Of a DNA stretch of 51,876 nucleotides, positions 24,192 to 46,434 are shown one piece after another. Numbering within the stretch: the first letter of the stretch is position 1; each line of letters starts with the position of its first letter. The notes beneath the pieces were generated by a model. That model was not told where the DNA came from. It ran no database searches and saw only the letters and a program-made list of their open reading frames with translations. Both the position numbers and the translations under genes were made by a program. The stretch is taken from IMG/VR virus record IMGVR_UViG_3300036398_004909, positions 1 through 51,876 of that record, one strand, 5' to 3'. This stretch comes from a virus.

Positions 24192-24968
24192 ATGAAATTA
24201 GGCTGTTCCTGGAACGTGTTTGATGGGGAAGAACTTTTAGAAGGTTCAATAAAACAAATAAGACAACATGTGGATTATGTAAGTGTTGTTTACCAAACAA
24301 CATCTAATTTTGGTAATGCGTGTAATCCAGAGTTATTACCACTTTTAGAAAGGTTAAAATCAGAAGGATTAGTAGATGAGTTATTTGAATACAATCCTAA
24401 AGTAAACAAAGGCGGACATTTCAATGAAATTCAAAAAAGAAATATTGGGTTATCCTTATCTCAAGGAGCTGGGTGCACACATCATATGTCAATGGATTCT
24501 GACGAATACTATTTAAATTCAGAATTTGGAGATCTTAAAAAGATTATAATAGAAAGTGACTATGACTCATCTTATTGTCAAATGCAAACATATTATAAAT
24601 CTTTTGAATATGCCTTGGATCCGCCAGAAACTTACTATGTTTCATTAATATTTAAAATTAAAAGTGATTCTAACTATTTCTTAATGGCACCATCACCTGT
24701 TTTAGTTGATCCAACAAGAAGATTGTCCCCAAGTAATAAACCAATAGTTTTAGATAGGAAAGATATACAAATGCATCATATGAGTTTTGTTAGAAAAGAT
24801 ATAGGTATAAAATTAAATAATTCATCAGCTAACGTATCTTTTATGGATAAAATACCAAAAATAACAAACCATTATATTAATTGGACATTCCCAAATAAAG
24901 TTATGTGGGCAAGTGGTGAATTATTAAATGTTAAAAAAGTAAACAACCAATTCAATGTCGAAATCTAA
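24192..24968 (+). CDS. Glycosyltransferase-like protein (GT-A fold)
   Basis: A 258-residue protein. The start MKLGCSWNVFDGEELLEGSI and HVDYVSVVYQTTSNFG, with MSMDSDEYYLN (a DxDE metal/nucleotide-sugar motif at about residue 98), fit a GT2/GT92-type GT-A fold that describes substrates with a DSDE box. It likely transfers a sugar in the same pathway as its neighbours. It overlaps the RgpF-like gene by 14 nt. Confidence 0.7.
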   Translation: MKLGCSWNVFDGEELLEGSIKQIRQHVDYVSVVYQTTSNFGNACNPELLPLLERLKSEGLVDELFEYNPKVNKGGHFNEIQKRNIGLSLSQGAGCTHHMSMDSDEYYLNSEFGDLKKIIIESDYDSSYCQMQTYYKSFEYALDPPETYYVSLIFKIKSDSNYFLMAPSPVLVDPTRRLSPSNKPIVLDRKDIQMHHMSFVRKDIGIKLNNSSANVSFMDKIPKITNHYINWTFPNKVMWASGELLNVKKVNNQFNVEI

Positions 24969-25713
24969 AATAGCTGTTTTAATTCATTTATTTTATACCG
25001 ATTTATGGTATGAAATTGAGTCTTACCTAAAAAATTTAGAGGATTTCGAGTATGATTTATACATTAACATTGTCGATGGTTATTATAATGAAGAGATAGT
25101 TGATAAAATACTTAAATTTAAACATAACGTTAAAATTTTAAAATCACCAAATAAAGGGGTGGACGTTGGTGGGTTTTTATATCTATACAATTCATTAGAT
25201 AGTAGTTACGATTTAATATTAAAAATACACACAAAAAAAAGTATCGGATTACCAAACAAACCGTCTGATTACGTTAGGGTTTACGGTCCACAATTGGCAA
25301 AAGAAAAAGGTAATCAATGGTTTCATAAATTAATGAAAGGCGTTTTAAGATCTAAAAACCAAGTTAAAGATATTATTGAGCTATTAGAAAATGAAACCCC
25401 TTTTGCAATGGCCGGTTTAGATTGTGAAACTTATATAGGACCTAATTTAAAACAAGTTAAAGAATTAGGAGATAAATTTAACATACCAACAGATTTTAAC
25501 GGTGATAGAATTAAAAATGCTAGTTTTGTTGGTGGTACTATTTTTTGGGTAAAGAATGATATTCTTAAAAAATATTTAACAAAAGATAATATAAAATATC
25601 TATTAGAATTGTTACCAGAAGGTTACCAAAACGAACCTTCATATAATCACGCTTTAGAAAGACTATTTGGTATGATGGTTTATAACGAAAATAAAAAAAT
25701 AATTAATTTATGA
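24955..25713 (+). CDS. RgpF-like rhamnan-synthesis-type glycosyltransferase
   Basis: A 252-residue protein. LIHLFYTDLWYEIESYLKNL at the start, NKGVDVGGFLYLYN and LILKIHTKKS (about residues 88-97) are the signatures of the RgpF family, which builds rhamnose-containing polysaccharides in bacteria. VGGTIFWVKNDILKKYL follows. The start overlaps the previous gene and the end overlaps the methyltransferase (ATGA). The sugar need not be rhamnose. Confidence 0.84.
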   Translation: MSKSKIAVLIHLFYTDLWYEIESYLKNLEDFEYDLYINIVDGYYNEEIVDKILKFKHNVKILKSPNKGVDVGGFLYLYNSLDSSYDLILKIHTKKSIGLPNKPSDYVRVYGPQLAKEKGNQWFHKLMKGVLRSKNQVKDIIELLENETPFAMAGLDCETYIGPNLKQVKELGDKFNIPTDFNGDRIKNASFVGGTIFWVKNDILKKYLTKDNIKYLLELLPEGYQNEPSYNHALERLFGMMVYNENKKIINL

Positions 25714-26375
25714 CACTAAGTGAAATAGCTGAAAAAAATACTACCGACAAAAGAATTTTAGAACATAATTACGTTCAGTTTTACGAAAAATATTTTGACT
25801 CAATTAGAGATAAAAAATTAAAAATACTTGAAATAGGTATCTACAGGCCAGCCCCTAATTCAGGTAGATTAGTTGGTGCTTCTTTAAAAACTTGGTATGA
25901 TTACTTTCCTAAAGCTGATATATACGGTGTTGACTTAACTGATTTTACTGATGTAGAAAACGATAGAATTAAGACGACAATATGTAACCAAGCTAATAGA
26001 GAGGATAAAAGTGATTATCCGGGTTTAGAAAGTGTTATTAAAAAATTTGGGGGTGAGTTTGATATAATAATAGATGATGGTGGTCACACTATGGAACAAC
26101 AATTAGTTACATTAGGTTACATGTTTAAATACTTAAAAAATAACGGTATTTTTGTTATAGAAGACTTACACACATCCTATTTTGCCCCACACGCATATAA
26201 CAATACAAATACTAAAAATACAACACTTAATGTATTACAAGAATTTCAAAAAAACAGTAAAATTTATAGTGAATTCATAACAGATGAAGAGTTAAATTAC
26301 TTAAATAACCATATTGAAAAATGTGAAATTCATAAAGCGAACATTTCAGAAATATCTTTTATAATTAAAAAATGA
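25710..26375 (+). CDS. SAM-dependent methyltransferase (sugar O-methylation type)
   Basis: A 221-residue class I methyltransferase. SAM-binding ILEIGIYRP (about residues 40-48), an acidic turn IYGVDLTDF, DIIIDDGGHTMEQQLVTLGY (about 112-131) and VIEDLHTSYF are typical of the MycE/MycF and cephalosporin-hydroxylase-like sugar methyltransferases. It probably methylates a sugar hydroxyl on the glycan. It is a paralogue of 27829-28512 (SLKTWYDYFPKA against SLKMWYEYFPNA). It overlaps both neighbours by ATGA. Confidence 0.82.
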   Translation: MTLSEIAEKNTTDKRILEHNYVQFYEKYFDSIRDKKLKILEIGIYRPAPNSGRLVGASLKTWYDYFPKADIYGVDLTDFTDVENDRIKTTICNQANREDKSDYPGLESVIKKFGGEFDIIIDDGGHTMEQQLVTLGYMFKYLKNNGIFVIEDLHTSYFAPHAYNNTNTKNTTLNVLQEFQKNSKIYSEFITDEELNYLNNHIEKCEIHKANISEISFIIKK

Positions 26376-27136
26376 AAATAAATTTAAAAGACGTTACTTT
26401 TATTATACCTATCAAGTTAGATTCCAATGATAGGTTAAACAACTACACAATAGTTATTAATCATTTAACAAATTTATTCGATACCAATATCATAGTTTGT
26501 GAATCAGATAGAAATTCAAACGAAAATCTATTAAAAATTCACGAAAATATTGAGTATGTTTTTTATGAAAATAAAACAGATTACTTTCATAGAACAAAAA
26601 TATTGAATATCATGACAAAAATGGCTAAAACTAATATTATTTGTAATTACGATACTGATGTAGTATTTCCAGAACAACAATACATATCTTCTGTTAATAA
26701 AATTAAAAAAGATAATTGTACTATAGTTTTTCCGTATGGTGGTAAATTCATGAATGTACCTAATAAATTTTTTGATTTAATTAAAAATAACAATTTTTAT
26801 GAAATAGACGAAGATTTATTAGAACTTGCCCATCCTAACTCATTGGGTGGTGCATTCTTTTTTGATAAAGAAAAATATACTACAGTGGGGTTAGAGAATG
26901 AAAACTTCATGTCATGGGGTTTTGAAGATAATGAAAGAGTTTCTAGACTCCAAAAACTAAACCACCAAATATGTAGGGTACCAGGATTATTATTCCATCT
27001 AAATCACCAAAGGGGTGTTGATAGTGTACCTGAAAATCCTTATTATAGAAAAAATATGCAAGAATATGGTAAAATAAATTCTATGTCGAAAACTGATTTA
27101 GAATCTTATATAAAAAATTGGTATTGGGTTAATTAA
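26372..27136 (+). CDS. Glycosyltransferase (GT2/GT7 C-domain-like)
   Basis: A 254-residue protein. FIIPIKLDSNDRLNN at the start, ICNYDTDVVFPEQQYI (DTD motif, about residue 92) and the C-terminal LGGAFFFDKEKYTTVGLENE followed by FMSWGFEDNERVSRLQKL fit GT-A enzymes with a galactosyltransferase-type C-domain (GG...ENF...WG.ED). An HxxHQRG ending is also seen. It is within the tightly coupled block. Confidence 0.8.
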   Translation: MKINLKDVTFIIPIKLDSNDRLNNYTIVINHLTNLFDTNIIVCESDRNSNENLLKIHENIEYVFYENKTDYFHRTKILNIMTKMAKTNIICNYDTDVVFPEQQYISSVNKIKKDNCTIVFPYGGKFMNVPNKFFDLIKNNNFYEIDEDLLELAHPNSLGGAFFFDKEKYTTVGLENENFMSWGFEDNERVSRLQKLNHQICRVPGLLFHLNHQRGVDSVPENPYYRKNMQEYGKINSMSKTDLESYIKNWYWVN

Positions 27137-27137
27137 T

Positions 27138-27827
27138 ATGTTTTTTTCAATAGTAATTCCAACATATGAGTATAAAGGTAAAGCACCTGATTTACTAAAC
27201 AAATTGTTAGAAAGTATTAATTCACAAACATTTAAAGATTATGAAATTATAATATCAGATCATAGTGTCTCTGATTTAGTAAAAAATTTCATTAATAGTG
27301 AATGGTCTAAATTACCTGTGATTTATTATAAAAATGAAAGAGGAAGAGGTAATAGTTCTATTAACATGAATGAAGGAATAAAAATAGCTAAAGGTAATTA
27401 CATAAAAATAATGCACATGGATGATTGGTTTTGTGATAATGAATCTTTAGAGGTAATAAAAATGTCAATAGATAAAGAACCAAACAAAAAATGGGGTGGT
27501 GTCGGTTTTAATCATTTTTCAGAAAATACAAAATTAACTGAAAGATATTATATGCCACACATAAATCCTAACATTAGAACTTTACTTGGTTGTCCGAGTG
27601 TATCATTTTTTATTAATGATAGAGATAATTTAAACTTATTTGATGAGTCCCTAATTATTATAAACGATTCTGATATGCACATAAGATTAGGTAAAAAATA
27701 TGGTGACCCAATATTTGTTAACAAATATTGTGTAACAATAAGAATGTCAAATGACCAAGTATCAAACCAAGTTTCAGAAGAAAAACACATAAAAGAAATA
27801 GAATATTACCAAAATAAAAATTTTTAA
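27138..27827 (+). CDS. Glycosyltransferase, GT2
   Basis: A 229-residue GT2 protein: FSIVIPTYEYKGKAPDLLNK, LESINSQTFKDYEIIISDHS, NMNEGIKIAKGNYIKIMHMD with DDW as the metal site (about residues 94-96). It lacks a membrane segment, so it is likely cytoplasmic. It starts 1 nt after the gene before and precedes the second methyltransferase. Confidence 0.86.
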   Translation: MFFSIVIPTYEYKGKAPDLLNKLLESINSQTFKDYEIIISDHSVSDLVKNFINSEWSKLPVIYYKNERGRGNSSINMNEGIKIAKGNYIKIMHMDDWFCDNESLEVIKMSIDKEPNKKWGGVGFNHFSENTKLTERYYMPHINPNIRTLLGCPSVSFFINDRDNLNLFDESLIIINDSDMHIRLGKKYGDPIFVNKYCVTIRMSNDQVSNQVSEEKHIKEIEYYQNKNF

Positions 27828-27828
27828 A

Positions 27829-28512
27829 ATGGATAAATTAACAGAATTAGCGAATAAATACGCTTCAGACAAGGGGACGGTAACTCCCTCAACAGGTCAT
27901 CACGGACCTAGATTACATTTTACACCAAAATATAATGCACATTTTGAATCAATAAAAAACCAAAAATTAAATATTCTTGAGATTGGGATTGGTTCAGGTC
28001 CATCATTAAAAATGTGGTATGAGTATTTTCCTAACGCGACTATACATGCTATAGATATTAATAGTCAAGAGCAACATAATAATGAAAGAGTTACAACTTA
28101 CATTTGTGATCAATCTAATAGAGAAGATTTAAAAAAAGTTATGGATAAAGTTGGTGAAGTAGATATCATAATTGATGATGGTTCACATGTAATAGACCAC
28201 CAACAAATTAGCTTAGGTTTTTTATTTGAATACTTAAAAAAAGGTGGTCAATATTGGATAGAAGATTTACATACTTCCGATAAATCTATTTGGCAAGGTA
28301 AAGAACTTTATGGTTACAATATGTCATTTAACGATGGGGAATCGACGGTAGAAGTTCTCGAATACTATCTAAATAAAAAAGTATTTAATAGTCCATTTTT
28401 AACGGAAAAGGAAAACAATTATTTAACCAGCAATATAGAATCAATGGTTATTTACGATTTACCGCCAACATTTTACGGTTTTAATAAGCTTTGCTTAATT
28501 GAAAAAAAATGA
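27829..28512 (+). CDS. SAM-dependent methyltransferase, second copy
   Basis: A 227-residue class I methyltransferase, paralogous to 25710-26375. It has ILEIGIGSGPSLKMWYEYFP (about residues 44-63), DIIIDDGSHVIDHQQISLGF and WIEDLHTSD. The N-terminal KYASDKGTVTPSTGHHGPRL is a metal-rich-looking loop typical of this group. Probably a sugar O-methyltransferase with a different position or sugar. Overlaps the epimerase by ATGA. Confidence 0.82.
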   Translation: MDKLTELANKYASDKGTVTPSTGHHGPRLHFTPKYNAHFESIKNQKLNILEIGIGSGPSLKMWYEYFPNATIHAIDINSQEQHNNERVTTYICDQSNREDLKKVMDKVGEVDIIIDDGSHVIDHQQISLGFLFEYLKKGGQYWIEDLHTSDKSIWQGKELYGYNMSFNDGESTVEVLEYYLNKKVFNSPFLTEKENNYLTSNIESMVIYDLPPTFYGFNKLCLIEKK

Positions 28513-29438
28513 AAATATTAATAACAGGGGGTGCTGGTTTTATAGGGTCAAAATTAATCGATAGATTATTATTAGATAATCATGAAATTATAGTTTTAGA
28601 TAATTTTTTAAATCAAATTCATGGTAATAAACCCACTTTAAAAAATGGGGTTAAATATATTTTTGGGGATGTAAGAAAAAAATCTGATTGGTTAAAATCA
28701 CTAAAAGAGAATCCTGAAATAATTTTTCATTTGGCCTCTGAAACAGGTACCGGTCAGTCTATGGATAAAATAAATAGATACGTCAATACTAATGTTGTAG
28801 GTACGTCAATTATGTTGGATTTGGTTAATAGTAATAAATACGGTGTAAAAAAAATAATACTAACATCAAGTAGGGCGGTTTATGGGGATGAAGAAAATAT
28901 AGAATCAAATTACGTATTAAAACCCAAATCAGTTTATGGTGTGACTAAATTAACACAAGAACAATTAATTATTACTGGGTGTAATATACCATACACAATA
29001 TTACGATACCAAAATGTTTATGGAGAGGGCCAAAGTTTAAATAACCCCTATACTGGTATAATTACAATATTTAGTAACATTTTTGAAAAGGGTGGTGAAG
29101 TTTCTATTTTTGATAACGGTTTGGCGACTAGAGATTTTATACATGTTAATGATGTTGTTGATGCTACCTACTTGGCTATAAATGAAAAAACTAATTATAA
29201 CATATATAATGTTGGTACTGGTATTGATGTACCCATATTAGAGGTTACTAAAAAATTAAAAAATTTAATAAATAAAAATTCTACAATAAAAATAATTGAT
29301 TACCACAGAAAAGGTGATATAATTAATGCAAAGGCGGATATAAAAAAAATAATCACGGATTTAAATTGGTCACCAATAGTAACGTTAGATGAGGGATTAG
29401 AAAGATTTGTGGAATGGTTTAAATTAATAAAAAAATGA
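28509..29438 (+). CDS. NAD-dependent nucleotide-sugar epimerase/dehydratase
   Basis: A 309-residue extended SDR enzyme. NAD-binding ITGGAGFIGSKL at the N-terminus, ILTSSRAVYGDE with the catalytic Ser, and KSVYGVTKLTQEQL with the YxxxK pair. The family includes UDP-glucose 4-epimerase and dTDP-glucose 4,6-dehydratase; length and motifs favour an epimerase/dehydratase of the GalE/WcaG group. It prepares an activated sugar for the transferases around it. The exact substrate cannot be read. Confidence 0.86.
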   Translation: MKILITGGAGFIGSKLIDRLLLDNHEIIVLDNFLNQIHGNKPTLKNGVKYIFGDVRKKSDWLKSLKENPEIIFHLASETGTGQSMDKINRYVNTNVVGTSIMLDLVNSNKYGVKKIILTSSRAVYGDEENIESNYVLKPKSVYGVTKLTQEQLIITGCNIPYTILRYQNVYGEGQSLNNPYTGIITIFSNIFEKGGEVSIFDNGLATRDFIHVNDVVDATYLAINEKTNYNIYNVGTGIDVPILEVTKKLKNLINKNSTIKIIDYHRKGDIINAKADIKKIITDLNWSPIVTLDEGLERFVEWFKLIKK

Positions 29439-30211
29439 TAACATCAAATTTAGTAGGTGGTTTGGGAAACTATATGTTTCAAATAGCGACAGCATTTTCT
29501 TTAGCTGTAGAAAATAAAGACGAATTATTATATAATATTAATGATAGTGTAACAATACACAAACATTTAAACAGTTATTTAAATAATATTTTTAATAAAA
29601 TAAATTTTACAAATAAAAATTTATTAATAACTGAAATATATGAAGAGCCACATTTTCATTATAAAAAAATAGAATATAAGCCAAATTTAAAGTTAAACGG
29701 ATATTATCAAAGTGAAAAATATTTTATTAACAATAGAGATAAAGTAATAGATTTATTCAAAATAAATCCTGAAACTGAATTATACATAAAAAATAAATAT
29801 GGTGATTTTTTGAAAGAAGATATCTGTTCTTTACACGTTAGAAGAGGTGATTACTTAAAATTCCCTGATTATCATCCAGTATGTGATGTTGATTACTATT
29901 TAAATTCTGTAAAGGAAATTGGTGAGGACACATTATATTTTATTTTTTCAGATGACGTTGAATGGTGTTTAAAAAATTTAAGTTTTATAAAAAACAAAAT
30001 TTTTATTGAGGGTAATGAAGATTACCAAGATTTATTTTTAATGACAAAATGTAAAAATAATATAATAGCTAACTCTTCTTTTAGCTGGTGGGGGGCGTGG
30101 TTAAATAACAACCCCAATAAAATAGTAATAGCACCCAAAAAATGGTTTGGTTTACGTAATTCACATTTAAACACTTCTGATTTATATTGTGAAAATTGGG
30201 TAGTATTATGA
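29435..30211 (+). CDS. Alpha-1,2-fucosyltransferase-like, GT11
   Basis: A 258-residue enzyme: N-terminal GGLGNYMFQIA (8-18), HVRRGDY (134-140), and NSSFSWWGAWLN near residue 213. These are the three GT11 motifs of alpha-1,2-fucosyltransferases, which use GDP-L-fucose. With the GDP-sugar enzymes immediately downstream it should add fucose or a related 6-deoxy-L-sugar (colitose has been seen to be used by such enzymes). Overlaps neighbours by ATGA at both ends. Confidence 0.9.
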   Translation: MITSNLVGGLGNYMFQIATAFSLAVENKDELLYNINDSVTIHKHLNSYLNNIFNKINFTNKNLLITEIYEEPHFHYKKIEYKPNLKLNGYYQSEKYFINNRDKVIDLFKINPETELYIKNKYGDFLKEDICSLHVRRGDYLKFPDYHPVCDVDYYLNSVKEIGEDTLYFIFSDDVEWCLKNLSFIKNKIFIEGNEDYQDLFLMTKCKNNIIANSSFSWWGAWLNNNPNKIVIAPKKWFGLRNSHLNTSDLYCENWVVL

Positions 30212-31137
30212 AAAATAAAATTTTAATAACAGGTTCTAACGGATTATTAGGGTCTGCTTTTAGAACTATTTTAGGTGATAAAAATCATGTTTATCACACA
30301 AGAAAAGACTGTGATTTAACACTAGAAAAAGAAACAATTGATTATATTACAAAAATTGTTAACGAACAAAATATTGACACTATAGTTCATTGTGCAGCAA
30401 AGGTTGGTGGTGTTAAGGCTAATTCTGAAAATAATGAAGGTTTTTTTATTGAAAATTATAAAATAAATAATAACGTAATAAAAGCTGCTTTTCATAACAA
30501 AATACCTAATTTTGTCAATATACTATCTACTTGTATATTTCCCGACAATAATATAAATTACCCCTTAACACCAAAACAAATTGATTACGGGGCACCACAC
30601 AATTCAAACTATGGTTATTCATATGCTAAAAGATTGTCTGGGTATGAGACTAAAATTTTTAGAAACATCACAGGTTTAAATTGGTTTTCAGTAGTACCAA
30701 CAAATATTTATGGACCTTACGATAATTTTAATATAGAAAATAGTCATTTAATACCTGGTTTAATACATAGAGCTTTTTTAGCTAAAAAATATAATCAAAA
30801 ATTTGTTGTATGGGGTGATGGTAAAGCTCTTAGACAATTTATATATGCCGAAGATTTGGTTAAATTAATCTTATGGTCTTTAGATAATTGGAAAGTTGAA
30901 GAGCATTGTATGTTAGTTAACGAAGAAGAGGTTTCCATTTTAGAAATTGTTGATATTATTAAAAATAAAATAGGTATTCAAAACGAAGATATTATTTTTG
31001 ACGAAACAAAACCTAAAGGGCAACATAGAAAACCCGCCATTTCGGATATGAAAATATATGATTTTGTACCACTTAAAAAAGGGATTGAAGAAACAATTGA
31101 TTGGTTTATAAAAAACTATGATACTATTAGAAAATGA
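30208..31137 (+). CDS. fcl: GDP-L-fucose synthase / ColC-type epimerase-reductase
   Basis: A 309-residue SDR enzyme; ATG at 30208 (ATGA overlap) is chosen over 30196. Motifs: ILITGSNGLLGSAF, VHCAAKVGGVKANSENN, ILSTCIFP with catalytic Ser at 107, and YSYAK (Y137, K141), close to the S107/Y136/K140 triad of E. coli Fcl. It performs the 3,5-epimerisation and 4-reduction giving GDP-L-fucose; the homologue ColC does the equivalent step in GDP-L-colitose synthesis. The next gene is a ColD-like enzyme, so ColC function is a real option. No GDP-mannose 4,6-dehydratase is visible, so its substrate must come from elsewhere in the genome or from the host. Confidence 0.88.
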   Translation: MKNKILITGSNGLLGSAFRTILGDKNHVYHTRKDCDLTLEKETIDYITKIVNEQNIDTIVHCAAKVGGVKANSENNEGFFIENYKINNNVIKAAFHNKIPNFVNILSTCIFPDNNINYPLTPKQIDYGAPHNSNYGYSYAKRLSGYETKIFRNITGLNWFSVVPTNIYGPYDNFNIENSHLIPGLIHRAFLAKKYNQKFVVWGDGKALRQFIYAEDLVKLILWSLDNWKVEEHCMLVNEEEVSILEIVDIIKNKIGIQNEDIIFDETKPKGQHRKPAISDMKIYDFVPLKKGIEETIDWFIKNYDTIRK

Positions 31138-32300
31138 AAAAAATTGATTTAATACAGGACACAATAGATAATAAAGACATCGATTTATTAATTGAGTGGC
31201 TAAAAGAGTACCCAAAATTAACTAAAGGGTTAAAAACAATTGAATTTGAAAATAAATGGTCTAACTGGTTAGGTTGTAAATATTCTGTTTTTGTTAACTC
31301 AGGTTCTTCAGCTAATTTACTGATGTTATATGCTCTAAAAATATTAGGTATGATGAGGAATGATAAAGTTTGTGTACCCTCATTATGTTGGGCCACAGAT
31401 TTAGCCCCTGTTTTACAACTAAAGATGGAGCCAATCTTAGTTGATTGTAATTTAGAAAATCTATCAGTTGATTTAAATCATTTAGAAAACTTATTTAAAA
31501 AAGAAAATCCTTCTGTATTACTTTTAGTCTCAGTTCTTGGTTTATCCCCAGACATGGACAAAATTACAGATTTATGTAAAAAATACGATGTTATATTATT
31601 AGAGGATAATTGTGAATCACAGGGTACGATATATAAGGGTAAAAAATTAGGTAACTTTGGGTTAATGTCGTCTTTTTCCACATATTTCGCACACACAATG
31701 TCAACAATTGAAGGTGGTATGGTTTCCACTAATGATGAAAAAGTTTACCACGCTTTATTACAATTAAGAAGTCATGGTTGGGATAGAGATTTACCAGATT
31801 GGAAACAAAAAGAGTTAAGGGACCATTGGAAGGTTAGTGATTTTTCTACTTTATATACTTTTTATATACCAGGGTTTAACCTTAGAAGTACTGATTTACA
31901 AGCAAAAATAGGTATAGACCAACTAGATAAAGTTGATTTGATGATAGAAAATAGATATAATAATTTTTTATACTATAAATCAAAACTAGAGAATAAAATA
32001 TGGTTTCCAAAAACTATAGAAGATAGTTACACATCAAATTTTGCGATACCAGTTATTACTAAATCTATAACAGATAAAAATAACATGGTAAAAGATTTGG
32101 CCGAAAACAACATAGTATGTCGACCTTTAATATCAGGGTCTATGGGGACGCAACCTTTTTATAAAAGTTTATACGGCGAAAATAAATTACCAAACTGTAC
32201 AAAAATAGACGAATGTGGTCTATATGTACCAAACCACGATAAGTTAACTATAGAAGATATAGACAGAGTTTGTAAAGTTTTATTAAAATATGAAGCCTAA
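31134..32300 (+). CDS. colD: ColD-like GDP-4-keto-6-deoxymannose 3-dehydratase (PLP)
   Basis: A 388-residue DegT/DnrJ-family enzyme. At the PLP-lysine site it has FSTYFAHTMSTIEGGM: His187 stands six residues before the Glu of EGG, where aminotransferases have Lys. Such a His is the hallmark of the 3-dehydratases ColD (His188, also 388 residues as I recall) and RfbH. PLP-binding residues NSGSSANLL (55-63) and LLEDNCESQGT (155-165), and LRSHGWDRDLP, are present. The enzyme removes the 3-OH, giving a 3,6-dideoxy sugar, probably leading to colitose with the gene upstream. Substrate assignment is inference from motif plus neighbour. Confidence 0.86.
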   Translation: MKKIDLIQDTIDNKDIDLLIEWLKEYPKLTKGLKTIEFENKWSNWLGCKYSVFVNSGSSANLLMLYALKILGMMRNDKVCVPSLCWATDLAPVLQLKMEPILVDCNLENLSVDLNHLENLFKKENPSVLLLVSVLGLSPDMDKITDLCKKYDVILLEDNCESQGTIYKGKKLGNFGLMSSFSTYFAHTMSTIEGGMVSTNDEKVYHALLQLRSHGWDRDLPDWKQKELRDHWKVSDFSTLYTFYIPGFNLRSTDLQAKIGIDQLDKVDLMIENRYNNFLYYKSKLENKIWFPKTIEDSYTSNFAIPVITKSITDKNNMVKDLAENNIVCRPLISGSMGTQPFYKSLYGENKLPNCTKIDECGLYVPNHDKLTIEDIDRVCKVLLKYEA

Positions 32301-33096
32301 AGTTTATGGATTTATACCTGAAGAAAATCTTATTGATTTAGATTTTTCTTGTAGGTTAGTAGTTGACCCCAATAAGGAGTATTTTAATTTAGTAAAAAAA
32401 GAAAGAGAATCTTTTGATAAGATGATTTTAATTCACGGATGTGAACCAAAATCTATTAATAATATTACAAAAGAAATAATAGAAAACAGTCAGTTTTTTG
32501 ATAAAATCTACTCTTTTGATGAAGAGGTTTTAATAAATTGTAAAAATAGTGAAATATTTCAATTTGGTTCTTGTTGGACGTTAACTGATAAAATCGGTGA
32601 ATCAATAATGAAAGAGTCTGAATTTGTAGAAAAAAATTTTAATAAAGAGTTTAAAGTCAGTTTTATAAAATCAAACAAAAACTCATTAGAGGGTCATAGA
32701 CTCAGAAATTCTGTACCAGAACTACTTAAAAATAAAAGTTTTAAAATTTTACACATGCAGAACATACCGATTAAGTTCCCGCTTTTTAAGGACTCAATGT
32801 TCCATGTATCAATAGAAAATACAAGAGAAAAAAATTATTTTACAGAAAAAATTATCGATTGTTTTATGACAAAAACCATACCCATTTATTGGGGATGCCC
32901 CAACATAATAGATATTTTTGATAAAAACGGTATTCTAGTCTTTAATGACTTGTCTGAGTTAAATTATATATTAAAAAATTTAACTGAAGAAGATTATCTA
33001 AAAAGAATAGGTTCTGTGGAAAAAAATTATATAATATCTAAAAAATTTGCTTTCTTTTTTGAAAGGATTAATAACATTTTAATAAATTTAAAATAA
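32290..33096 (+). CDS. Alpha-1,3-fucosyltransferase-like, GT10
   Basis: A 268-residue protein. The motif SIENTREKNYFTEKIIDCFM (174-193), followed by TKTIPIYWGCPNI, matches the GT10 nucleotide-binding signature (ENS...DYVTEKL..AF...VPVxxG). GT10 enzymes transfer L-fucose (alpha-1,3/1,4) from GDP-fucose. It starts inside the end of colD (11-nt overlap), so it should be co-translated, and it is the second fucosyltransferase-type enzyme in the island. Confidence 0.82.
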   Translation: MKPKVYGFIPEENLIDLDFSCRLVVDPNKEYFNLVKKERESFDKMILIHGCEPKSINNITKEIIENSQFFDKIYSFDEEVLINCKNSEIFQFGSCWTLTDKIGESIMKESEFVEKNFNKEFKVSFIKSNKNSLEGHRLRNSVPELLKNKSFKILHMQNIPIKFPLFKDSMFHVSIENTREKNYFTEKIIDCFMTKTIPIYWGCPNIIDIFDKNGILVFNDLSELNYILKNLTEEDYLKRIGSVEKNYIISKKFAFFFERINNILINLK

Positions 33097-33098
33097 AT

Positions 33099-33800
33099 AT
33101 GATAACTTTTTTAAGTTTTGCTGATAAAAAATATTCTTTAACTTTAGAGAGAATAAAAAATGAGGCCATATCTTCTTCTTTTTTTGATGAAGTAAAAACT
33201 TATAATGAAAATGATTTACCTGAAGATTTAAAAAATTTTTGTAACTCAAACCGTAGAGGGTTTGGGTATTGGGTATGGAAACCCTATTTTGTATATAAAA
33301 CAATAAAAGAAATAGGTGAAAATGATATTTTAGTTTATTGTGATGCCGGTTGTACTATAAACCAAAAAGGTAAAAATAGGTTTGATGAATATATTGAAAT
33401 GGTAAAAAATGACCCTTACGCTAACATATCTTTTCAAATGGACCATTTAGAAAAAAGATTTTCTAAAGGTGATATTTTTAAATATTTTGATGCCTACAAC
33501 CAATTAGACACGGGTCAGATAGCTAATTGTACTATAATTTTGAGGAAAAATGAACATACAATGAATTTAGTTAAATTATGGTATGAAACATGTATTAACG
33601 AAAGACATTTAATAACAGATATACCGTCACAATCACCTAATGATCCTATATTCTTTGATAATAGACACGACCAATCAATTTTTTCTGTTATAAGAAAAAA
33701 ATATGGTACAATTTTTTTAGAAGACGAAACTTATAAATTAAACAATGACGGAAGTTTTGACATAAAATACCCCATTCATTGCTCAAGAGTAAAATTTTAA
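33099..33800 (+). CDS. Glycosyltransferase-like protein
   Basis: A 233-residue protein. MITFLSFADKKYSLTLERIK, then RRGFGYWVWKPYFVYKTIKE (about residues 51-70), NDILVYCDAGCTIN (about 77-90) and a late DNRHDQSIFSVIRKK fit a GT-A-like family of capsule and LPS glycosyltransferases (DxG metal site). It is the last plus-strand gene of this block; a minus-strand gene follows convergently. The sugar is unknown. Confidence 0.7.
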   Translation: MITFLSFADKKYSLTLERIKNEAISSSFFDEVKTYNENDLPEDLKNFCNSNRRGFGYWVWKPYFVYKTIKEIGENDILVYCDAGCTINQKGKNRFDEYIEMVKNDPYANISFQMDHLEKRFSKGDIFKYFDAYNQLDTGQIANCTIILRKNEHTMNLVKLWYETCINERHLITDIPSQSPNDPIFFDNRHDQSIFSVIRKKYGTIFLEDETYKLNNDGSFDIKYPIHCSRVKF

Positions 33801-33819
33801 AAAATTTTTTAGTTATAAT

Positions 33820-34260
33820 TTATAAATTGTAGTTTATAATATAATCACTACAGATACCAACACATTTAGATGTGTCATCACCGTTTAATTCAGGCATAAC
33901 TGCGATACTATTTTTAATAGGTTGTTTTCCTGGGTAGGCCCAAATATATTTAAAAGATGTTAAAGTTATGTCATCTTCTTGATGCCAAAAATAATGAAAT
34001 TCATATTCACACTCTTTAAAAAAAGTTACAGCTTCAATGTTTTTACAGTGAACCCATAACTTACCAATTCTATTTAATAACCACCCAATATCAATTAAAT
34101 GTTCAGGTTTATCGTGTCCTAAAAAAAGGTTACCATCTTTATACCAAACATCAACCTCAACCTCATAACCTTTTTGGATAGCCAAATCAATGTAAGTTGG
34201 TTCATTTTCCATATTTTCTATTTTCCCATTTATGTTGCCTCTGTGTGATATAAGTTTCAT
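33820..34260 (-). CDS. Short GDPD-like (glycerophosphodiesterase-fold) protein
   Basis: A 146-residue protein starting at the ATG at 34260 (two TTG codons upstream are less likely). MKLISHRGNINGK has the HRG of glycerophosphodiester phosphodiesterases, and YEVEVDVWYKDGNLFLGHD has the E.D and GHD residues. LWVHCKNIEAV and HYFWHQEDDITLTSFKYIWA follow. Full GDPD enzymes have about 240 residues, so this is a compact form. Similar proteins accompany polysaccharide genes in bacteria and phages. It could act on a glycerophospho-sugar. It is convergent with the gene at 33099. Confidence 0.76.
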   Translation of the reverse strand: MKLISHRGNINGKIENMENEPTYIDLAIQKGYEVEVDVWYKDGNLFLGHDKPEHLIDIGWLLNRIGKLWVHCKNIEAVTFFKECEYEFHYFWHQEDDITLTSFKYIWAYPGKQPIKNSIAVMPELNGDDTSKCVGICSDYIINYNL

Positions 34261-34325
34261 CAACAAAATATAATAATTAAACTTTATTAATGAAGTCTTA
34301 TTATTATAATTAATAAAAAATTGCG

Positions 34326-35687
34326 ATGGATTTTAAATTAATTATTTTTGATTTAGATGGTGTTTTAATAGATACTAGAGACTTACATTTTGAAGTTCTA
34401 AATGAGGCATTAAATGAGGTGTCTAACGAGTATGTTATTTCTTACAAAGATCACCTTTCTAAATTCGATGGTTTATCGACTAAAAAAAAGTTAGAAATTT
34501 TATCAAATGAAAAAGGGTTACCATTAGAATATCACGATTTTATTTGGAAAAGAAAGCAATCTTTAACATCAGAAAAACTAAAAACTTATTTAAAATATGA
34601 TGAAAAAATAGTTAAAATAATTAAAAAACTTAAAGAGGATGGGTTAAAAGTTTGTGTAGCATCCAATTCTATTAGAGAAACTATCAAAATCTCGTTAATG
34701 AAAATAGGTGTTATGGAACATATAGACTATTTTATTTCTAACGAAGATGTAAACTCACCAAAACCCCATCCAGAGATATACATGAAATGTATGATAAAAG
34801 AAAAAGTCTTACCTAAAGAGACTCTAATTATTGAAGATTCGTATATAGGTAGAACAGCAGCTATCCAATCTGGTGCTATTCTATGTCCAGTTAAAAACCC
34901 AACAGAAGTTACTTTAGAAAGAATTTACGAAGTTATGAACAGAGAAGTGAAAGATCCTAAATGGGAGGATAAAAAAATGAATATATTGATACCTATGGCA
35001 GGAGCCGGAAGTAGATTTAGTAATGCCGGATATTCTTTCCCAAAACCGTTAATACAAGTTGGTGATAAACCTATGATACAAGTTGTTATTGAAAATTTAA
35101 ATATTGATGCTAATTATATCTTTTTAGTTAGAACAGAACAATACGAAAAGTATAATTTAAAATCACTATTAAATATTATAACCCCCAACTGTAAAATCAT
35201 TTTAGTAGACAAACTAACTGAAGGTGCTTGTAGTACCACATTACTGGCCGAAAATTATATTAACAATGATAGTCCGCTTTTAATAGCAAATTCAGACCAA
35301 TTTATTGAGTGGTCTTCTGGGGAATTTTATCATTCAATAAACTCTGTTGGTATAGATGGAAGTATTTTAATTTTTAATAATAACCACCCTAAGTGGAGTT
35401 ATGTAAAATCAGATCAATACGGTAATGTTATTGAATTAAAAGAAAAAGAGGTTATTAGTAATGACGCAACTGTGGGAATTTATTATTGGTCTAAAGGATC
35501 TGATTATGTAAAATACTCACATCAAATGATAGATAAAAATTTAAGGGTTAACGGAGAGTTTTATGTCGCACCAGTTTATAACGAAGCGATATCAGATAAT
35601 AAAATTATCAAAACATATAAAATAAATAAAATGTGGGGATTGGGTACACCAGAGGATTTAAAATATTATTTAGAAAATAAAAAATGA
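34326..35687 (+). CDS. HAD phosphatase - sugar nucleotidyltransferase fusion
   Basis: A 453-residue fusion. Residues 1-215: HAD hydrolase with FDLDGVLIDTRDLHFEVL (D9/D11), VCVASNSIRETIK and SPKPHPEIY, IEDSYIGRTAA, a beta-phosphoglucomutase-type enzyme. From Met218: MNILIPMAGAGSRFSNAGYS and FPKPLIQVGDKPM, LLIANSDQFIEW, a sugar-phosphate nucleotidyltransferase that makes an NDP-sugar. In one chain it could dephosphorylate a bisphosphate and then activate the sugar. An internal ATG at 34977 could also give the transferase alone. Followed by an overlapping cupin gene. Confidence 0.86.
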   Translation: MDFKLIIFDLDGVLIDTRDLHFEVLNEALNEVSNEYVISYKDHLSKFDGLSTKKKLEILSNEKGLPLEYHDFIWKRKQSLTSEKLKTYLKYDEKIVKIIKKLKEDGLKVCVASNSIRETIKISLMKIGVMEHIDYFISNEDVNSPKPHPEIYMKCMIKEKVLPKETLIIEDSYIGRTAAIQSGAILCPVKNPTEVTLERIYEVMNREVKDPKWEDKKMNILIPMAGAGSRFSNAGYSFPKPLIQVGDKPMIQVVIENLNIDANYIFLVRTEQYEKYNLKSLLNIITPNCKIILVDKLTEGACSTTLLAENYINNDSPLLIANSDQFIEWSSGEFYHSINSVGIDGSILIFNNNHPKWSYVKSDQYGNVIELKEKEVISNDATVGIYYWSKGSDYVKYSHQMIDKNLRVNGEFYVAPVYNEAISDNKIIKTYKINKMWGLGTPEDLKYYLENKK

Positions 35688-36001
35688 AAACATATAATTT
35701 AAAAAATATGATTCGTGGTTGGTTCATAGGTAATTTTGAACCAAGTTTATATAAAACTAATTTTGAGGTTGGTGTTAAAAGATATAAGTCCGGTGATAAA
35801 GAAAAAAAACACTACCATAAATTATCAAAAGAATTTACTGTGATTATTCAGGGTGTTGTTAAAATGAACGGTGTTGTTTACAAAGAGGACGATATTATTC
35901 AAATAGATGAATTTTATGAAACCGATTTTGAATGTATTGAAGACGCTGTAACGGTTATTGTAAAAACAAATAGTAACCGCGATGATAAATACGTTGTTTA
36001 A
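35684..36001 (+). CDS. Small cupin-like protein
   Basis: A 105-residue single-domain protein with the order KRYKSGDKEKKHYHKLSKEF (about 31-50; HxH metal-ligand pair), FTVIIQGVVKMNGVVYKEDD and IIQIDEFYETDFECIEDAV, the two cupin motifs. Small cupins near sugar nucleotidyltransferases often act as sugar isomerases or binding modules. It overlaps the fusion gene by ATGA, so they probably act together. Confidence 0.7.
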   Translation: MKTYNLKNMIRGWFIGNFEPSLYKTNFEVGVKRYKSGDKEKKHYHKLSKEFTVIIQGVVKMNGVVYKEDDIIQIDEFYETDFECIEDAVTVIVKTNSNRDDKYVV

Positions 36002-36007
36002 TATTAA

Positions 36008-36658
36008 CTATTGTCTACCTAACCAGTGTTTTATGAAGTATGGGTTAGTAAAAAATTCCCTATTAACACGAATACCAATTTCAGTCATTTTATAACCTTC
36101 TTGTTCTAATACCAAAGCCCATAATCTTTCCATACCTTCTGATTCCATTTTATTTGTTGGTAAGATTTTATTAAACCCTCTAGATTTTAATCTATCTAAA
36201 ACTAATTTTTTGATATAAACAGTTGGGCCGAATAATGCCCATCTTGGTTCTAAAAATGAATAGTTAGTATTTTTTGTTATTTGTTCATAACAAAAATTTC
36301 TCATAGCAGAAGGTCCATAAGTCGATGGGTTATACTCATACGGGAAATATGATAGTGTCGTTACGTCCCTATTTTTAAAATCACTCACATCACCAATCAA
36401 TATCATAGAATCTTGAATTAAATAAAAAAAATCTTCTTCCGGGTAAGTTTCATGACAGTACCATAAAGCACCTTCCAAATAGTTAGTATTCCCAATATCA
36501 GCAGTAATAACACTTTCAGGTAATTTTTTAAAATATTCTTTATTATCAGAATTACTGTCTACTACAACTATTTTTTCTTCAGGGTGAAACTTAATGATTG
36601 AATTAACACAATCTAATATTAATGACTTTTCAGTCCATTTACAGGCAATTACAAACAT
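36008..36658 (-). CDS. Glycosyltransferase-like protein
   Basis: A 216-residue protein: MFVIACKWTEKSLILDCVNS, EEKIVVVDSNSDNKEYF, a DSMILIGDVSDF segment and a C-terminal ESEGMERLWALVLEQEGYKM. The pattern is of a small GT2-like enzyme without an obvious DxD. It is on the minus strand, convergent with the cupin gene and 1 nt from its minus-strand neighbour, so the two form a separate small operon. Confidence 0.62.
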   Translation of the reverse strand: MFVIACKWTEKSLILDCVNSIIKFHPEEKIVVVDSNSDNKEYFKKLPESVITADIGNTNYLEGALWYCHETYPEEDFFYLIQDSMILIGDVSDFKNRDVTTLSYFPYEYNPSTYGPSAMRNFCYEQITKNTNYSFLEPRWALFGPTVYIKKLVLDRLKSRGFNKILPTNKMESEGMERLWALVLEQEGYKMTEIGIRVNREFFTNPYFIKHWLGRQ

Positions 36659-37462
36659 TTATGAATCGTATTGTTTAGTGTAATTAATAAAAAATTCAAC
36701 ATCATCTTTTCTATATACCTCACAAAATCTTTTAGGGTAGGATTCTATATTTATATTGTCCATAGTTGATTGAACGTATAATATTCTACAAGGATCTAGT
36801 CTACCACAACCATTGTCATACGGGTTATCAATGATGGTTCTATAATTAGGCCATGTATTTGATATTTTATCCATGGTTGGAGAATCTGAATAGAAAAAAA
36901 TATCGTAAATCCTATTAGGCCAATGCCAACCCCTAGGACCAAAGTTATTGTGATAAATGGTGTTAGGTTTTGAATAATTGATTAAATCTAAATGATTAAC
37001 AAATAATAAATCAGGTCGACCCTTTAAAACAATGTCGTATTTAAAGTTATTCTCTTCTTCATATTTTTTTTTCATCATTATACTATCGTGAGTTTTATAC
37101 ATATATGGTATAGAACTAGCTGAACCAGCACCGTACCCAGAAAACTCACCTTTATTTTTCCAATTTAAAAAAATTTCTTTTAAGTGAGGGTCAGTAGAAT
37201 CTAACCAAGAGTCAAAATTTTCAATTTTAATGTCTTTTATATTTGGGAAAGATTCTTTTATCGATTCTATTGTAAAATCTTTACTTAATTTTTCAATACC
37301 CCCCTGTATTAAGTGTTGATGTGCTGAAAATCCTATATGATCCCAAACAGATATAAAAATGTCTGGATTTAAAGGATTTGTAACAAACTCTTTTAAATAC
37401 TTTCTAACGTTTTCATCGTCAAAACTTCTAAGTTCACCGGCTATACAATAAGCAATTCTCAT
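36659..37462 (-). CDS. Capsule-type glycan protein, probable glycosyltransferase
   Basis: A 267-residue protein starting MRIAYCIAGELRSFDDENVR. Motifs: NPDIFISVWDHIGFSAH, a KYDIVLKGRPDLLF stretch and RIYDIFFYSDSPTMDK. This IAGxLRSF...KGRPDL type is found in polysaccharide and LPS gene clusters of bacteria and phages; the enzymology is unclear to me. The upstream region is A/T-rich without a good GATATTTAT motif. Confidence 0.62.
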   Translation of the reverse strand: MRIAYCIAGELRSFDDENVRKYLKEFVTNPLNPDIFISVWDHIGFSAHQHLIQGGIEKLSKDFTIESIKESFPNIKDIKIENFDSWLDSTDPHLKEIFLNWKNKGEFSGYGAGSASSIPYMYKTHDSIMMKKKYEEENNFKYDIVLKGRPDLLFVNHLDLINYSKPNTIYHNNFGPRGWHWPNRIYDIFFYSDSPTMDKISNTWPNYRTIIDNPYDNGCGRLDPCRILYVQSTMDNINIESYPKRFCEVYRKDDVEFFINYTKQYDS

Positions 37463-37519
37463 TTTAAAATATTTACATAAAATATAAAAGATTTATTTTA
37501 TTAATAAATACTATTAAAC

Positions 37520-38308
37520 ATGACTAAAAGAAGAAATAAAAAACTAACCGAAGAAGAAATACAAGAAATTGAGTCTTTCATTGGTAAACACCCAGAAGAA
37601 GATAAAATATTAACACAAATAAGAATTGAAGTTAAACCTAAAACTGAGAATCAAAAAAAATTAATCCAAGCAATCAAAGAAAATGAAATTATTATTGCTT
37701 CAGGTTTTCCTGGTAGTGGTAAAACTTTTCTTAGTTGTGCGGAAGCCCTCAAATTAATTAAAAATCCACAAACACCATATAAAAAAATTATTCTTGTTAA
37801 ATCGGTAACTACGTTAAAAGATGAAGAGATTGGTTTTTTAAAAGGAACAATGGAAGAAAAAATGGAACCCTTTATGGATTCTTTTTTGGATAATTTTAAT
37901 AAAATTATTGGTGAGTATTTAACAGGTAAATTAAGAGAACAAAAATTAATTGAAATTAAACCAATAGCTTACGTCAGAGGAAGAAGTATTGATAATTCAG
38001 TTATCATTATTGATGAGGCTCAAAATATTTCTTTGGATAATATGCGTACCTTAATGACCAGAATCGGTGATAATTCAAAATTAATTATTTTAGGTGATAT
38101 TAAACAAAAAGACATTCGTAATAAACGTGAAAGCTCTTTGGAGATTGTTTTAAACAGGTTTAAAGATAAAAACAGTTTTGGTATTGTTGAACTTAGAAAC
38201 GAAGAAGACATTGTTAGAAATCCAATTATTAAAGTTATCGAAGAAATTTTTGACCAAATAGACGACGAAAAAAGTAATAATGGTAAAAAACAAATATTAA
38301 AAGATTAG
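37520..38308 (+). CDS. phoH: PhoH-like ATPase
   Basis: A 262-residue PhoH family P-loop protein. Walker A ASGFPGSGKT (60-69), IILVKSVTTLKDEEIGFLKG (about 93-112), Walker B VIIIDEAQNISLDNM (about 160-174) and LIILGDIKQKDIRN. PhoH is a common auxiliary gene of marine T4-like phages; it is an ATPase, probably acting on RNA, with unclear role. Its last base is shared with the GTG start of the next gene, so the two are coupled. Confidence 0.93.
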   Translation: MTKRRNKKLTEEEIQEIESFIGKHPEEDKILTQIRIEVKPKTENQKKLIQAIKENEIIIASGFPGSGKTFLSCAEALKLIKNPQTPYKKIILVKSVTTLKDEEIGFLKGTMEEKMEPFMDSFLDNFNKIIGEYLTGKLREQKLIEIKPIAYVRGRSIDNSVIIIDEAQNISLDNMRTLMTRIGDNSKLIILGDIKQKDIRNKRESSLEIVLNRFKDKNSFGIVELRNEEDIVRNPIIKVIEEIFDQIDDEKSNNGKKQILKD

Positions 38309-38904
38309 TGAGAAAATATAAAAATATTAGATTGAGAAAATCACCAATAATAGAAGAAAGGGTGAAATTAATCAATAGAATTATTAAAGAAACTATTAAT
38401 GAAAGTTTTGAATCTGTGATTAATACTGATTATGAGTTAATAGAAGAAAATTCAAATATTTTAATATATAGATTTAAAACAAATAGTGGTTATAGTTACG
38501 ATTTAGAATTTATTACAGATTTTATTGAGAATGATAAAAAATTTTATAATGGAAAAATTTTAAAAGACTATATCGATTCCGATTATATTGAACCTACCAT
38601 AGACATTGCTTTTGTGCCTTCTGAGGTTAACATGGAAGATAGAGATTCACCTGAATTATATACAAAAGAAACGAATAGGTATGAAACTATTGAATTAATG
38701 GGTAGAATATCTTTTTTAATAGAAGAGTTTATAAAAAACAATCCAAGAGTAAAAGTTTATATTATTGGTAAAAATACCAAAGAAATTAAATTAAGTATTT
38801 ATTTAAAAATATTTGATAATATATTTTCTGATAACTTTTATAAAACAGAAGGTCGTAGTTTAGGTTATCCCAGCGGTGCTTTTTATTTTATAAAAAAACA
38901 ATAA
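38308..38904 (+). CDS. Unknown protein, GTG start
   Basis: A 198-residue protein that starts with GTG within the PhoH stop (TAGTG). It is rich in Lys/Ile/Asn, with SPIIEERVKLINRIIKETIN near the N-terminus, YDLEFITDFIEN and a C-terminal stretch GRSLGYPSGAFYFIKKQ. No known motif was identified. The tight overlap with phoH implies coexpression. Confidence 0.6.
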   Translation: MRKYKNIRLRKSPIIEERVKLINRIIKETINESFESVINTDYELIEENSNILIYRFKTNSGYSYDLEFITDFIENDKKFYNGKILKDYIDSDYIEPTIDIAFVPSEVNMEDRDSPELYTKETNRYETIELMGRISFLIEEFIKNNPRVKVYIIGKNTKEIKLSIYLKIFDNIFSDNFYKTEGRSLGYPSGAFYFIKKQ

Positions 38905-38930
38905 CAATAAAAACAAATATTAAAAATTTA

Positions 38931-39596: not shown

Positions 39597-39632
39597 CGTT
39601 TACTTATAAAAAAACTTATATAATTTTAAAAT

Positions 39633-41082: not shown

Positions 41083-41088
41083 AAAAAT

Positions 41089-41889: not shown

Positions 41890-42053
41890 ACAAGGTTTTT
41901 TAAAGCATTTCTAATAAATCTTAAAAATAGTAGCCAACATGATATTTGTAATAAAAATAATATCATGGATAAAATCAATAAATAACTGATAAAAAAAATA
42001 TCAAAAGCATTGGTTCTATACCATAACAAGAAAAAAAATGATGATACGATTTA

Positions 42054-42833: not shown

Positions 42834-42847
42834 AAATCACTGCTTTT

Positions 42848-42856
42848 GATATTTAT
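42848..42856 (+). promoter_or_regulatory. Candidate late promoter GATATTTAT
   Basis: Exact motif in the 41-nt gap after the sigma factor gene and 18 nt before the ATG at 42875. It would drive 42875-46427. Confidence 0.5.
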
Positions 42857-42874
42857 ATTATAAAAACAACGATT

Positions 42875-44682: not shown

Positions 44683-44693
44683 CAACATAAATT

Positions 44694-45161: not shown

Positions 45162-45162
45162 T

Positions 45163-45345: not shown

Positions 45346-45347
45346 AA

Positions 45348-46427: not shown

Positions 46428-46434
46428 ATCTTGG

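Follow-up and report, generated by a model that had tools for sequence, protein, structure and literature searches.

A putative colitose module

We identified four overlapping genes that, with a probability of about two in three, form a phage module for making and transferring a GDP-activated 3,6-dideoxy-L-hexose, most likely L-colitose. They lie in the window, a linear 51.9-kb stretch of DNA that is a whole IMG/VR record and probably a fragment. 3,6-Dideoxyhexoses are known constituents of bacterial O-antigens. All on the plus strand and overlapping in order by 4, 4, and 11 bases, the genes encode a GT11 glycosyltransferase that is a candidate colitosyl- or fucosyltransferase (29435–30211; PF01531, 8.2e-32), a predicted GDP-4-keto-(3,6-di)deoxymannose epimerase/reductase, an Fcl/ColC-type SDR of the human-FX branch (30208–31137; PF01370, 1.5e-38), a predicted PLP/PMP-dependent GDP-4-keto-6-deoxymannose 3-dehydratase of the ColD type with His187 for Lys (31134–32300; PF01041, 1.8e-65), and a GT10 glycosyltransferase of the fucosyltransferase family, recognized in its C-terminal part (32290–33096; PF00852, 4.7e-06). 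Every one of these family matches exceeds its curated Pfam cut-off. A preliminary description of this DNA had placed four overlapping genes at 30208–33096; the ORF coordinates and overlaps uphold the overlapping sugar-gene set, but that interval covers only three of the four because the GT11 gene sits directly before its start. Compared with the related contig L005, the genes have dN/dS values of 0.25, 0.11, 0.07, and 0.13, and this purifying selection, together with the recurrence of the GT11-Fcl-ColD order in another phage group, argues that the cluster is not due to chance.

In the proposed route, GDP-4-keto-6-deoxymannose would come from the host's Gmd, or from a phage gmd beyond the fragment, as in relatives. 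The ColD-type enzyme would remove its C3 hydroxyl through a PMP Schiff base, with His187 as base/acid, and subsequent hydrolysis would give GDP-4-keto-3,6-dideoxymannose. The Fcl-type enzyme would then epimerize C5 and reduce C4 to yield GDP-L-colitose, which GT11 and/or GT10 would use to place colitose as a terminal residue. The preliminary description had left the choice between GDP-fucose and GDP-colitose; the ColD-like enzyme (by sequence, fold, and His187) and its recurrent pairing with Fcl speak for such a pathway, while the reductase falls off the ColC branch and gmd is missing here. GDP-colitose is the likeliest predicted product of the Fcl and ColD pair.

The ColD-like enzyme

The ColD-like identity of the predicted PLP enzyme is well supported. 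Its best sequence match in the PDB is ColD (9e-61), and structure modeling, proposed earlier as a check, gave a confident model (pLDDT 94) closest in fold to ColD at a TM of 0.9 (top Foldseek match 2r0t, 1e-36, TM 0.89–0.90). PF01041 and Foldseek both assign it the DegT/DnrJ/EryC1 (type I PLP) fold, and in sequence and fold it is nearest to ColD (2gms), ahead of GDP-perosamine synthase and E1. The claim that histidine replaces lysine as in ColD is borne out by the alignment, in which His187 stands opposite both ColD His188 and the lysine of a phage Lys-type paralogue and is invariant in 20 of 20 aligned relatives. Further residues share columns with ColD (D158/D159, S182/S183, N249/N248, and R330/R331, window enzyme first), whose mechanism is treated in PMC8987622. 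We rejected an E1/RfbH identity: the [2Fe-2S] cysteines found in those enzymes (CYC...SCGTC in E1) and in SpnQ are missing from the PLP enzyme, where the aligned positions are L, D, D, and K, and its score against the RfbH NCBIfam model (202 bits) lies under the cut-off of 423.

The reductase and its pairing with ColD

The best match of the reductase is human GDP-L-fucose synthase, both by sequence (PDB, 1.6e-64) and by fold (Foldseek 4bl5, 7e-30; model pLDDT 84). It scores 190 bits against the NCBIfam Fcl model NF047922, whose cut-off is 500. The previously named S107 (in S-T-C, with C109), Y137, and K141 (in YSYAK) are all present, counted from the ATG at 30208, and S107, C109, Y137, K141, and H180 are conserved in alignment A4. 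By clade and fold the protein belongs with GDP-L-fucose synthases; with ColC it shares the Fcl-family SDR type, the Ser/Tyr/Lys triad, and a gene partnership with ColD, but a quick tree groups it with human FX/TSTA3 and phage relatives, away from E. coli ColC and outside the ColC clade. The earlier Fcl/ColC-type label thus holds for the family but not for orthology, and since the reductase sits on the human FX/TSTA3-type branch, ColC here denotes a role rather than family membership. The reductase may work like ColC while not being filed as ColC, a role that we infer because it is paired with ColD in relatives.

Those relatives were found by an alignment-based genome scan; a scan with a single ColD sequence gave none. 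The order GT11-Fcl-ColD occurs in the window and in L005, L023, L107, L109, and L111–L113, with L110 having them one gene apart. Fcl relatives at 59–81% identity have ColD adjacent or one gene off, and this holds across two phage groups whose PhoH proteins are only ~39% identical. An Fcl homologue at 53% identity (L187) has no ColD beside it, and close viral kin (L006–L009) carry ColD and Gmd with no recognized Fcl within the sequence compared. A gmd homologue, which the preliminary description suggested seeking, is absent from the ORFs of the 51.9-kb record and from a 108-kb sister contig. It follows in the same cluster of four close relatives (L109–L112), which therefore encode a complete predicted route from GDP-mannose to GDP-colitose, and gmd also lies in the ColD cluster of L006–L011 and of cyanophage ACG-2014f. 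Two structural proteins of the window (43276–44682 and 46458–47996) had no match in the phage collection.

A less likely but serious alternative is that the Fcl-type reaction ends in ordinary GDP-L-fucose, used by GT11 and GT10, with the ColD-type dehydratase supplying a separate 3-deoxy sugar or working alongside, so that the phage would make fucose, perhaps with another sugar, rather than colitose. The reductase is FX-type, with equivalents of C109 and H180 of the double-epimerizing fucose synthases, but E. coli ColC retains both equivalents, and these residues therefore cannot discriminate between fucose and colitose. More distant Fcl relatives (L114/L115, 42–46%) adjoin Gmd without ColD, GDP-fucose is accepted by GT11 and GT10 enzymes, and GDP-fucose genes are described for a cyanophage and as active in chlorovirus PBCV-1 in PMC9602691 and PMC7019647, respectively. 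Against fucose stands the retention of ColD beside Fcl among the 59–81% identical relatives in both phage groups.

Other fates for the ColD product are also conceivable. In the quick tree, E. coli ColD lies on a very long branch in another clade, while the window enzyme falls within a 27-row clade holding most of the cellular enzymes with ThDP neighbors. Its nearest cellular kin include a clade adjoining ThDP (E1 alpha/beta) genes, several without Fcl, and a ColD-type product can therefore feed other pathways. GDP-4-keto-3,6-dideoxymannose might thus receive a C2 unit at C4 from a ThDP enzyme, giving a yersiniose-like branched sugar instead of colitose, and in a phage of the same lineage (L125/G011) a His-type ColD (51%) has an E1-type pair next to it. 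We consider this improbable for the window, where no ORF had a reported blast match to E1 alpha/beta references and the overlapping neighbor of the ColD-type gene is of Fcl type rather than an E1 pair.

Even less probable is a sugar 4-aminotransferase of the GDP-perosamine synthase type, the identity that database labels give the PLP enzyme (phrog_3139 is called 'aminotransferase', and cyanophage homologues are annotated likewise). The fold is common to aminotransferases, but histidine stands for the catalytic lysine in the window enzyme and all aligned relatives, and on His187 we rejected this identity. A Lys-type, perosamine synthase-like paralogue exists as a separate gene in L010, and the comparison reviewed in PMC8987622 gives ColD and E1 as lacking transaminase activity. 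The cyanophage family annotated 'aminotransferase' includes predicted His-type 3-dehydratases. It is scarcely credible that the whole cluster is functionless host DNA, decayed or picked up by accident, and we rejected host contamination: island gene content is variable and often host-like, but phage genes flank both sides, dN/dS is 0.07–0.25, and the same gene order recurs in independent phage contigs.

Glycosyltransferases and known systems

The earlier GT11 and GT10 family calls agree with Pfam matches above cut-offs and with motifs. GT11 carries the motifs HVRRGDY (HxRRGDY) and SSFSWW. Its counterpart in the E. coli O55 cluster for the colitose O-antigen, a GT11 of the alpha-1,2-fucosyltransferase family, shares 33% identity with it. 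GT10 matches PF00852 at 26.8 bits (cut-off 23.9) with an EN...Y.TEK donor motif, ENTREKNYFTEK, and its gene is 95% identical at the nucleotide level in L005. PMC11987014 describes WbgN and FUT2, both GT11 enzymes, as transferring L-fucose and L-galactose as well as L-colitose.

The phage set shares its enzyme families with the E. coli O55 colitose pathway (Gmd, ColD, ColC, and the GT11 colitosyltransferase WbgN). Both ColD enzymes are His-type dehydratases without an Fe-S cluster, and colC-colD and the phage Fcl-ColD genes both overlap by 4 bases. Identity is 33% for ColD and 32% for ColC, whose reductases lie on different branches; the O55 cluster holds gmd and GT11, whereas the phage fragment holds GT11 without gmd, adds GT10, and has no recognized flippase or polymerase. 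In cultured Synechococcus phage ACG-2014f, gp223–gp226 form a single run of gmd, an Fcl-type gene, a gene for a His-type 'aminotransferase', and GT11 inside a larger glycan cluster; unlike the window, this phage has gmd. Its ColD-like and Fcl-like proteins (34% and 29% identical to the window's) are on other branches, so the set is probably an independent acquisition. Cyanophage S-SCSM1 carries GDP-fucose genes (PMC9602691), and the GMD and GMER of PBCV-1 are active, with fucose and rhamnose as products (PMC7019647). As far as the available parts of these papers report, both resemble the window in combining viral GDP-4-keto-6-deoxymannose chemistry with fucosyltransferases and differ in having fucose as product and no 3-dehydratase. 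Dideoxy-sugar synthesis had been called unusual for a phage; the window is not the only phage sequence with such a set, ACG-2014f carrying gmd-fcl-ColD-like-GT11. In the open-licence literature, covered largely through titles and abstracts, we found nothing linking colitose to phage-encoded genes. The phage set also provides viral enzymes of the colitose pathway and of the GT11/GT10 families that can be put to the test.

An exchangeable glycan island

By blastn, a sister phage (G008, the 108-kb contig) is 96–99% identical to the window on both flanks of an island (24831–37502), whose left edge falls inside the ORF at 24192–24968. In the sister, the island (~24.8–37.5 kb) is replaced by an unrelated 12.3 kb encoding an E1-type 3-dehydratase, a GDP-mannose 3,5-epimerase, two GT11 enzymes, and one GT10. 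A PhoH-like gene (37520–38308, +; phrog_170, 4e-69) forms the constant right-hand border, and PhoH follows the island in the compared relatives reaching that point; on this comparison, we read the island as a glycan cassette that is open to exchange and ends at phoH. Such exchange between near-identical phages was our most surprising result and lies outside anything the preliminary description claimed.

On the plus strand before the four genes, the island encodes an RgpF-like protein (rhamnan synthesis; 24955–25713; PF05045, 6e-28), a glycosyltransferase with a Glyco_transf_7C domain (26372–27136; PF02709, 2.7e-08), a GT2 glycosyltransferase (27138–27827; PF00535, 6.4e-15), a methyltransferase-like protein (27829–28512; weak Pfam matches under cut-off), and a GalE-like NDP-sugar epimerase (28509–29438; PF01370, 7.1e-50; under NCBIfam cut-offs). 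We rejected the last as gmd, its best PDB match being UDP-glucose 4-epimerase (4zrm, 2e-45). After the four genes, on the same strand, come a conserved protein with no Pfam match (33099–33800; 75% identical in L005), a HAD phosphatase fused to a sugar nucleotidyltransferase (34326–35687; PF13419, 1.1e-29; PF00483, 3.7e-12), and a small phage-family protein overlapping the preceding gene (35684–36001; phrog_24762, 3.2e-33).

The T4-like cyano- and pelagimyophages have hypervariable host-recognition islands that are also variable, rich in glycosyltransferases, and set between conserved modules (PMC7029224). The window's island differs in its phoH border, in consisting mostly of nucleotide-sugar and glycosyltransferase genes, and in being swapped between phages 96–99% identical at the DNA level. 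A phage making 3,6-dideoxyhexoses, with near-identical phages carrying different sugar genes at one site, would suggest that a sugar presented during infection is under diversifying selection. We tentatively suggest, at less than even odds, that one phage lineage with a constant genome swaps a whole cassette of nucleotide-sugar and glycosyltransferase genes beside phoH, such that near-identical phages would show different terminal rare sugars: L-colitose here; L-galactose, a CDP-linked 3,6-dideoxyhexose, or both in the sister; and, in a third phage, a dideoxy sugar branched at C4. This would be a counterpart, on the virion, of O-antigen serotype switching.

Colitose may cap a phage-encoded glycan, probably one attached to virion proteins; we regard this as roughly an even bet and somewhat likelier than its addition to the host O-antigen, itself a substantial possibility. 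The virion is favored because no flippase, polymerase, or ligase family was recognized among the window genes and because conserved glycosyltransferases lie just past phoH, next to the variable ones. One conserved core glycosyltransferase outside the island (GT1-like; 40003–41082, +; PF00534, 7.4e-07) has relatives in 69 viral contigs.

The four-gene glycan module

The window (51,876 bases, the whole of a virus record classed as linear) has phage genes on both flanks of its glycan genes, encoding a helicase, a head-tail adaptor-like protein, a family B DNA polymerase, PhoH, a baseplate/tail-lysozyme-like protein, and a homing endonuclease. The module comprises genes for a GT11 glycosyltransferase (29435-30211), an Fcl-type reductase (30208-31137), a PLP enzyme (31134-32300), and a GT10 glycosyltransferase (32290-33096), with successive overlaps of 4, 4, and 11 bases. 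The preliminary description had already reported four overlapping genes, but GT11 precedes position 30208, where it placed their start. We compared the window with related viral and cellular contigs, numbered with an L. Against L005, dN/dS is 0.25 for GT11, 0.11 for the reductase, 0.07 for the PLP enzyme, and 0.13 for GT10, values that indicate constraint on each of the four proteins. The dS of GT10 is 0.18, against 0.72-1.01 for its neighbours, a sign that this gene was exchanged separately and recently.

From what is known of this family, we infer with roughly 90% probability that the PLP enzyme is a C3 dehydratase, a strong reading because sequence, fold, active site, and literature agree with it. 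The top sequence matches in the PDB are ColD structures (9e-61). An AlphaFold2 model of the kind the preliminary description had called for, built from 18 relatives (pLDDT 94), has ColD as its top Foldseek match (1e-36, TM 0.89-0.90), with GDP-perosamine synthase and E1 behind. The histidine proposed to stand in place of lysine does so: His187 shares an alignment column with ColD His188, is unchanged across 20 relatives, and is a lysine in the Lys-type paralogue of L010. D158, S182, N249, and R330 align with ColD D159, S183, N248, and R331, and the window enzyme lacks the [2Fe-2S] cysteines of E1/SpnQ. According to a review, this His takes the place of the aminotransferase Lys, ColD has no Fe-S cluster, and neither ColD nor E1 showed transamination under conditions that allowed it in SpnQ (PMC8987622).

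The reductase contains the expected S107, Y137, and K141, as well as C109 and H180; the latter two cannot separate ColC from Fcl because E. coli ColC retains both equivalents. Human GDP-L-fucose synthase (FX) is the top match in sequence (1.6e-64) and fold (7e-30), and a tree groups the reductase with FX and phage relatives, apart from E. coli ColC. Its proposed colitose role is based on pairing with ColD. Among distinct reductase relatives (59-81% identity), ColD lies immediately 3' of Fcl in L005, L107, L109, L111, L112, L113, and L023, and one gene intervenes in L110 (61%); the gene tables of L108 and L107 are identical. The more distant L114 and L115 have Gmd nearby and lack ColD, while L187 (53%) has neither beside its reductase homologue.

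The E. coli O55 cluster (NC_013941) includes gmd, manC, manB, and one GT11 gene; colC and colD lie beyond gnd and share a 4-base overlap. Both WbgN of E. coli and human FUT2, which are GT11 enzymes, are reported to transfer any of L-colitose, L-fucose, and L-galactose (PMC11987014), so the sugar used is not deducible from a GT11 annotation alone. The gmd homologue that the preliminary description had suggested looking for was not found by TIGR01472 profile search (cut-off 415 bits) in the 51,876-base window or the 108-kb sister phage contig G008. Within ColD clusters, gmd exceeds the cut-off in L006-L011 and cyanophage ACG-2014f and falls slightly below it (396-410 bits) in L109-L112. The L112 order, GT10-GT11-Fcl-ColD-unknown-Gmd-unknown-PhoH, would provide every step from GDP-mannose to GDP-colitose, along with two transferases. 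For the window phage, the intermediate would have to be supplied by the host or by phage DNA outside the record.

Exchange of the glycan island

By blastn, G008 matches window positions 1-24,830 at 96-99% identity, with a gap at 5868-6539, and positions 37,503-50,874 at 99%. Between them, window 24831-37502 (about 24.8-37.5 kb) corresponds to a different 12.3 kb in G008 (49320-61656; L214, L118), and a single 115-bp GT11 stretch is all that aligns. The G008 island encodes two GT11 and one GT10 proteins, a GT17-like protein, a radical SAM protein, a plant-like GDP-mannose 3,5-epimerase-like protein (PDB 2c59, 6.6e-95), and a dehydratase resembling E1/RfbH that has both the His and the cysteine motif (PDB 3bcx, 4.7e-75; 348 bits, cut-off 423). 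The sugars predicted for this island are L-galactose and, less certainly, a CDP-linked 3,6-dideoxyhexose. This swap is seen in two metagenomic contigs and may instead reflect chimeric assembly at the island borders; against this, phoH-bordered islands recur in many further contigs. L005 retains the GT11-Fcl-ColD-GT10 block at 85% DNA identity amid different surrounding genes. The island ends at phoH in the relatives that extend to it, and the genes 3' of phoH are conserved, among them two glycosyltransferases (40003-41082 and 41089-41889). The simplest picture would be a glycan with a conserved core and a variable cap.

Also in the island, at 34326-36001, a HAD phosphatase-sugar nucleotidyltransferase fusion is followed by a small protein (phrog_24762); relatives of the fusion (33%) adjoin phoH in sister islands L126, L131, L134, and L215. 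Outside it, the 5868-6539 stretch absent from G008 lies in ORF 4241-7339 (1032 aa in the window, 765 aa in G008), which adjoins a YadA-head-repeat protein (7355-9388) and is perhaps a variable fibre or adhesin. The window has two related copies of one sequence, at 11576-11992 and 47993-48416, which is repeated near the G008 start as well (1404-2334); identities among copies in the two contigs are about 80-88%, and the sequence is a repeated small gene.

No Wzx, Wzy, WaaL, or priming transferase was recognised among the window's Pfam, NCBIfam, and PHROG matches, which mildly favours direct transfer to protein over O-antigen assembly, although host enzymes could fill those roles. None of the 45 listed window genes has a Shine-Dalgarno-like motif upstream (background 8.6%), and their leaders are A-rich. 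This pattern resembles that of Bacteroidota, a weak hint of such a host.

Related phages and cellular relatives

Virus-encoded routes to GDP-deoxy sugars are already known, as are variable islands of glycosyltransferase genes. What is new is a dideoxy-sugar module whose reductase is of FX type, together with the allelic exchange of this module for another sugar island between phages that are nearly identical. In the open-licence literature we found no paper stating dideoxy-sugar synthesis by phages. The preliminary description held that such synthesis would be unusual in a phage, but the window is not the sole case, since cultured cyanophage ACG-2014f carries a comparable row of consecutive genes: gmd (555 bits, TIGR01472), then those for an Fcl-type protein sharing 49% identity with E. 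coli Fcl, a His-type enzyme annotated as "aminotransferase", and a GT11. Phage sequences are scattered over a quick ColD tree with some open forks: the window with L005-L007 and L023; L010; ACG-2014f with L011; and LR756502.

L023 (464-8280), an 8.3-kb contig binned as Lokiarchaeota, has the window's GT11-Fcl-ColD order on a single strand (40%, 59%, and 71% identity, respectively) and is probably a misbinned phage contig. L125, a phage of the window's lineage, has genes for a short E1-type ThDP pair (2866-4012, PF00676, 8.5e-15; 5070-6218, PF02779, 1.7e-7) adjoining SDRs and a ColD relative of the His type (51%), making a C4-branched 3,6-dideoxy sugar a possible product. Cellular ColD relatives in L026 (6301-8312), L029 (5954-7974), L044, and L079 likewise adjoin dehydrogenase E1 alpha/beta-like genes, an arrangement that suggests branched dideoxy sugars in uncultured bacteria.
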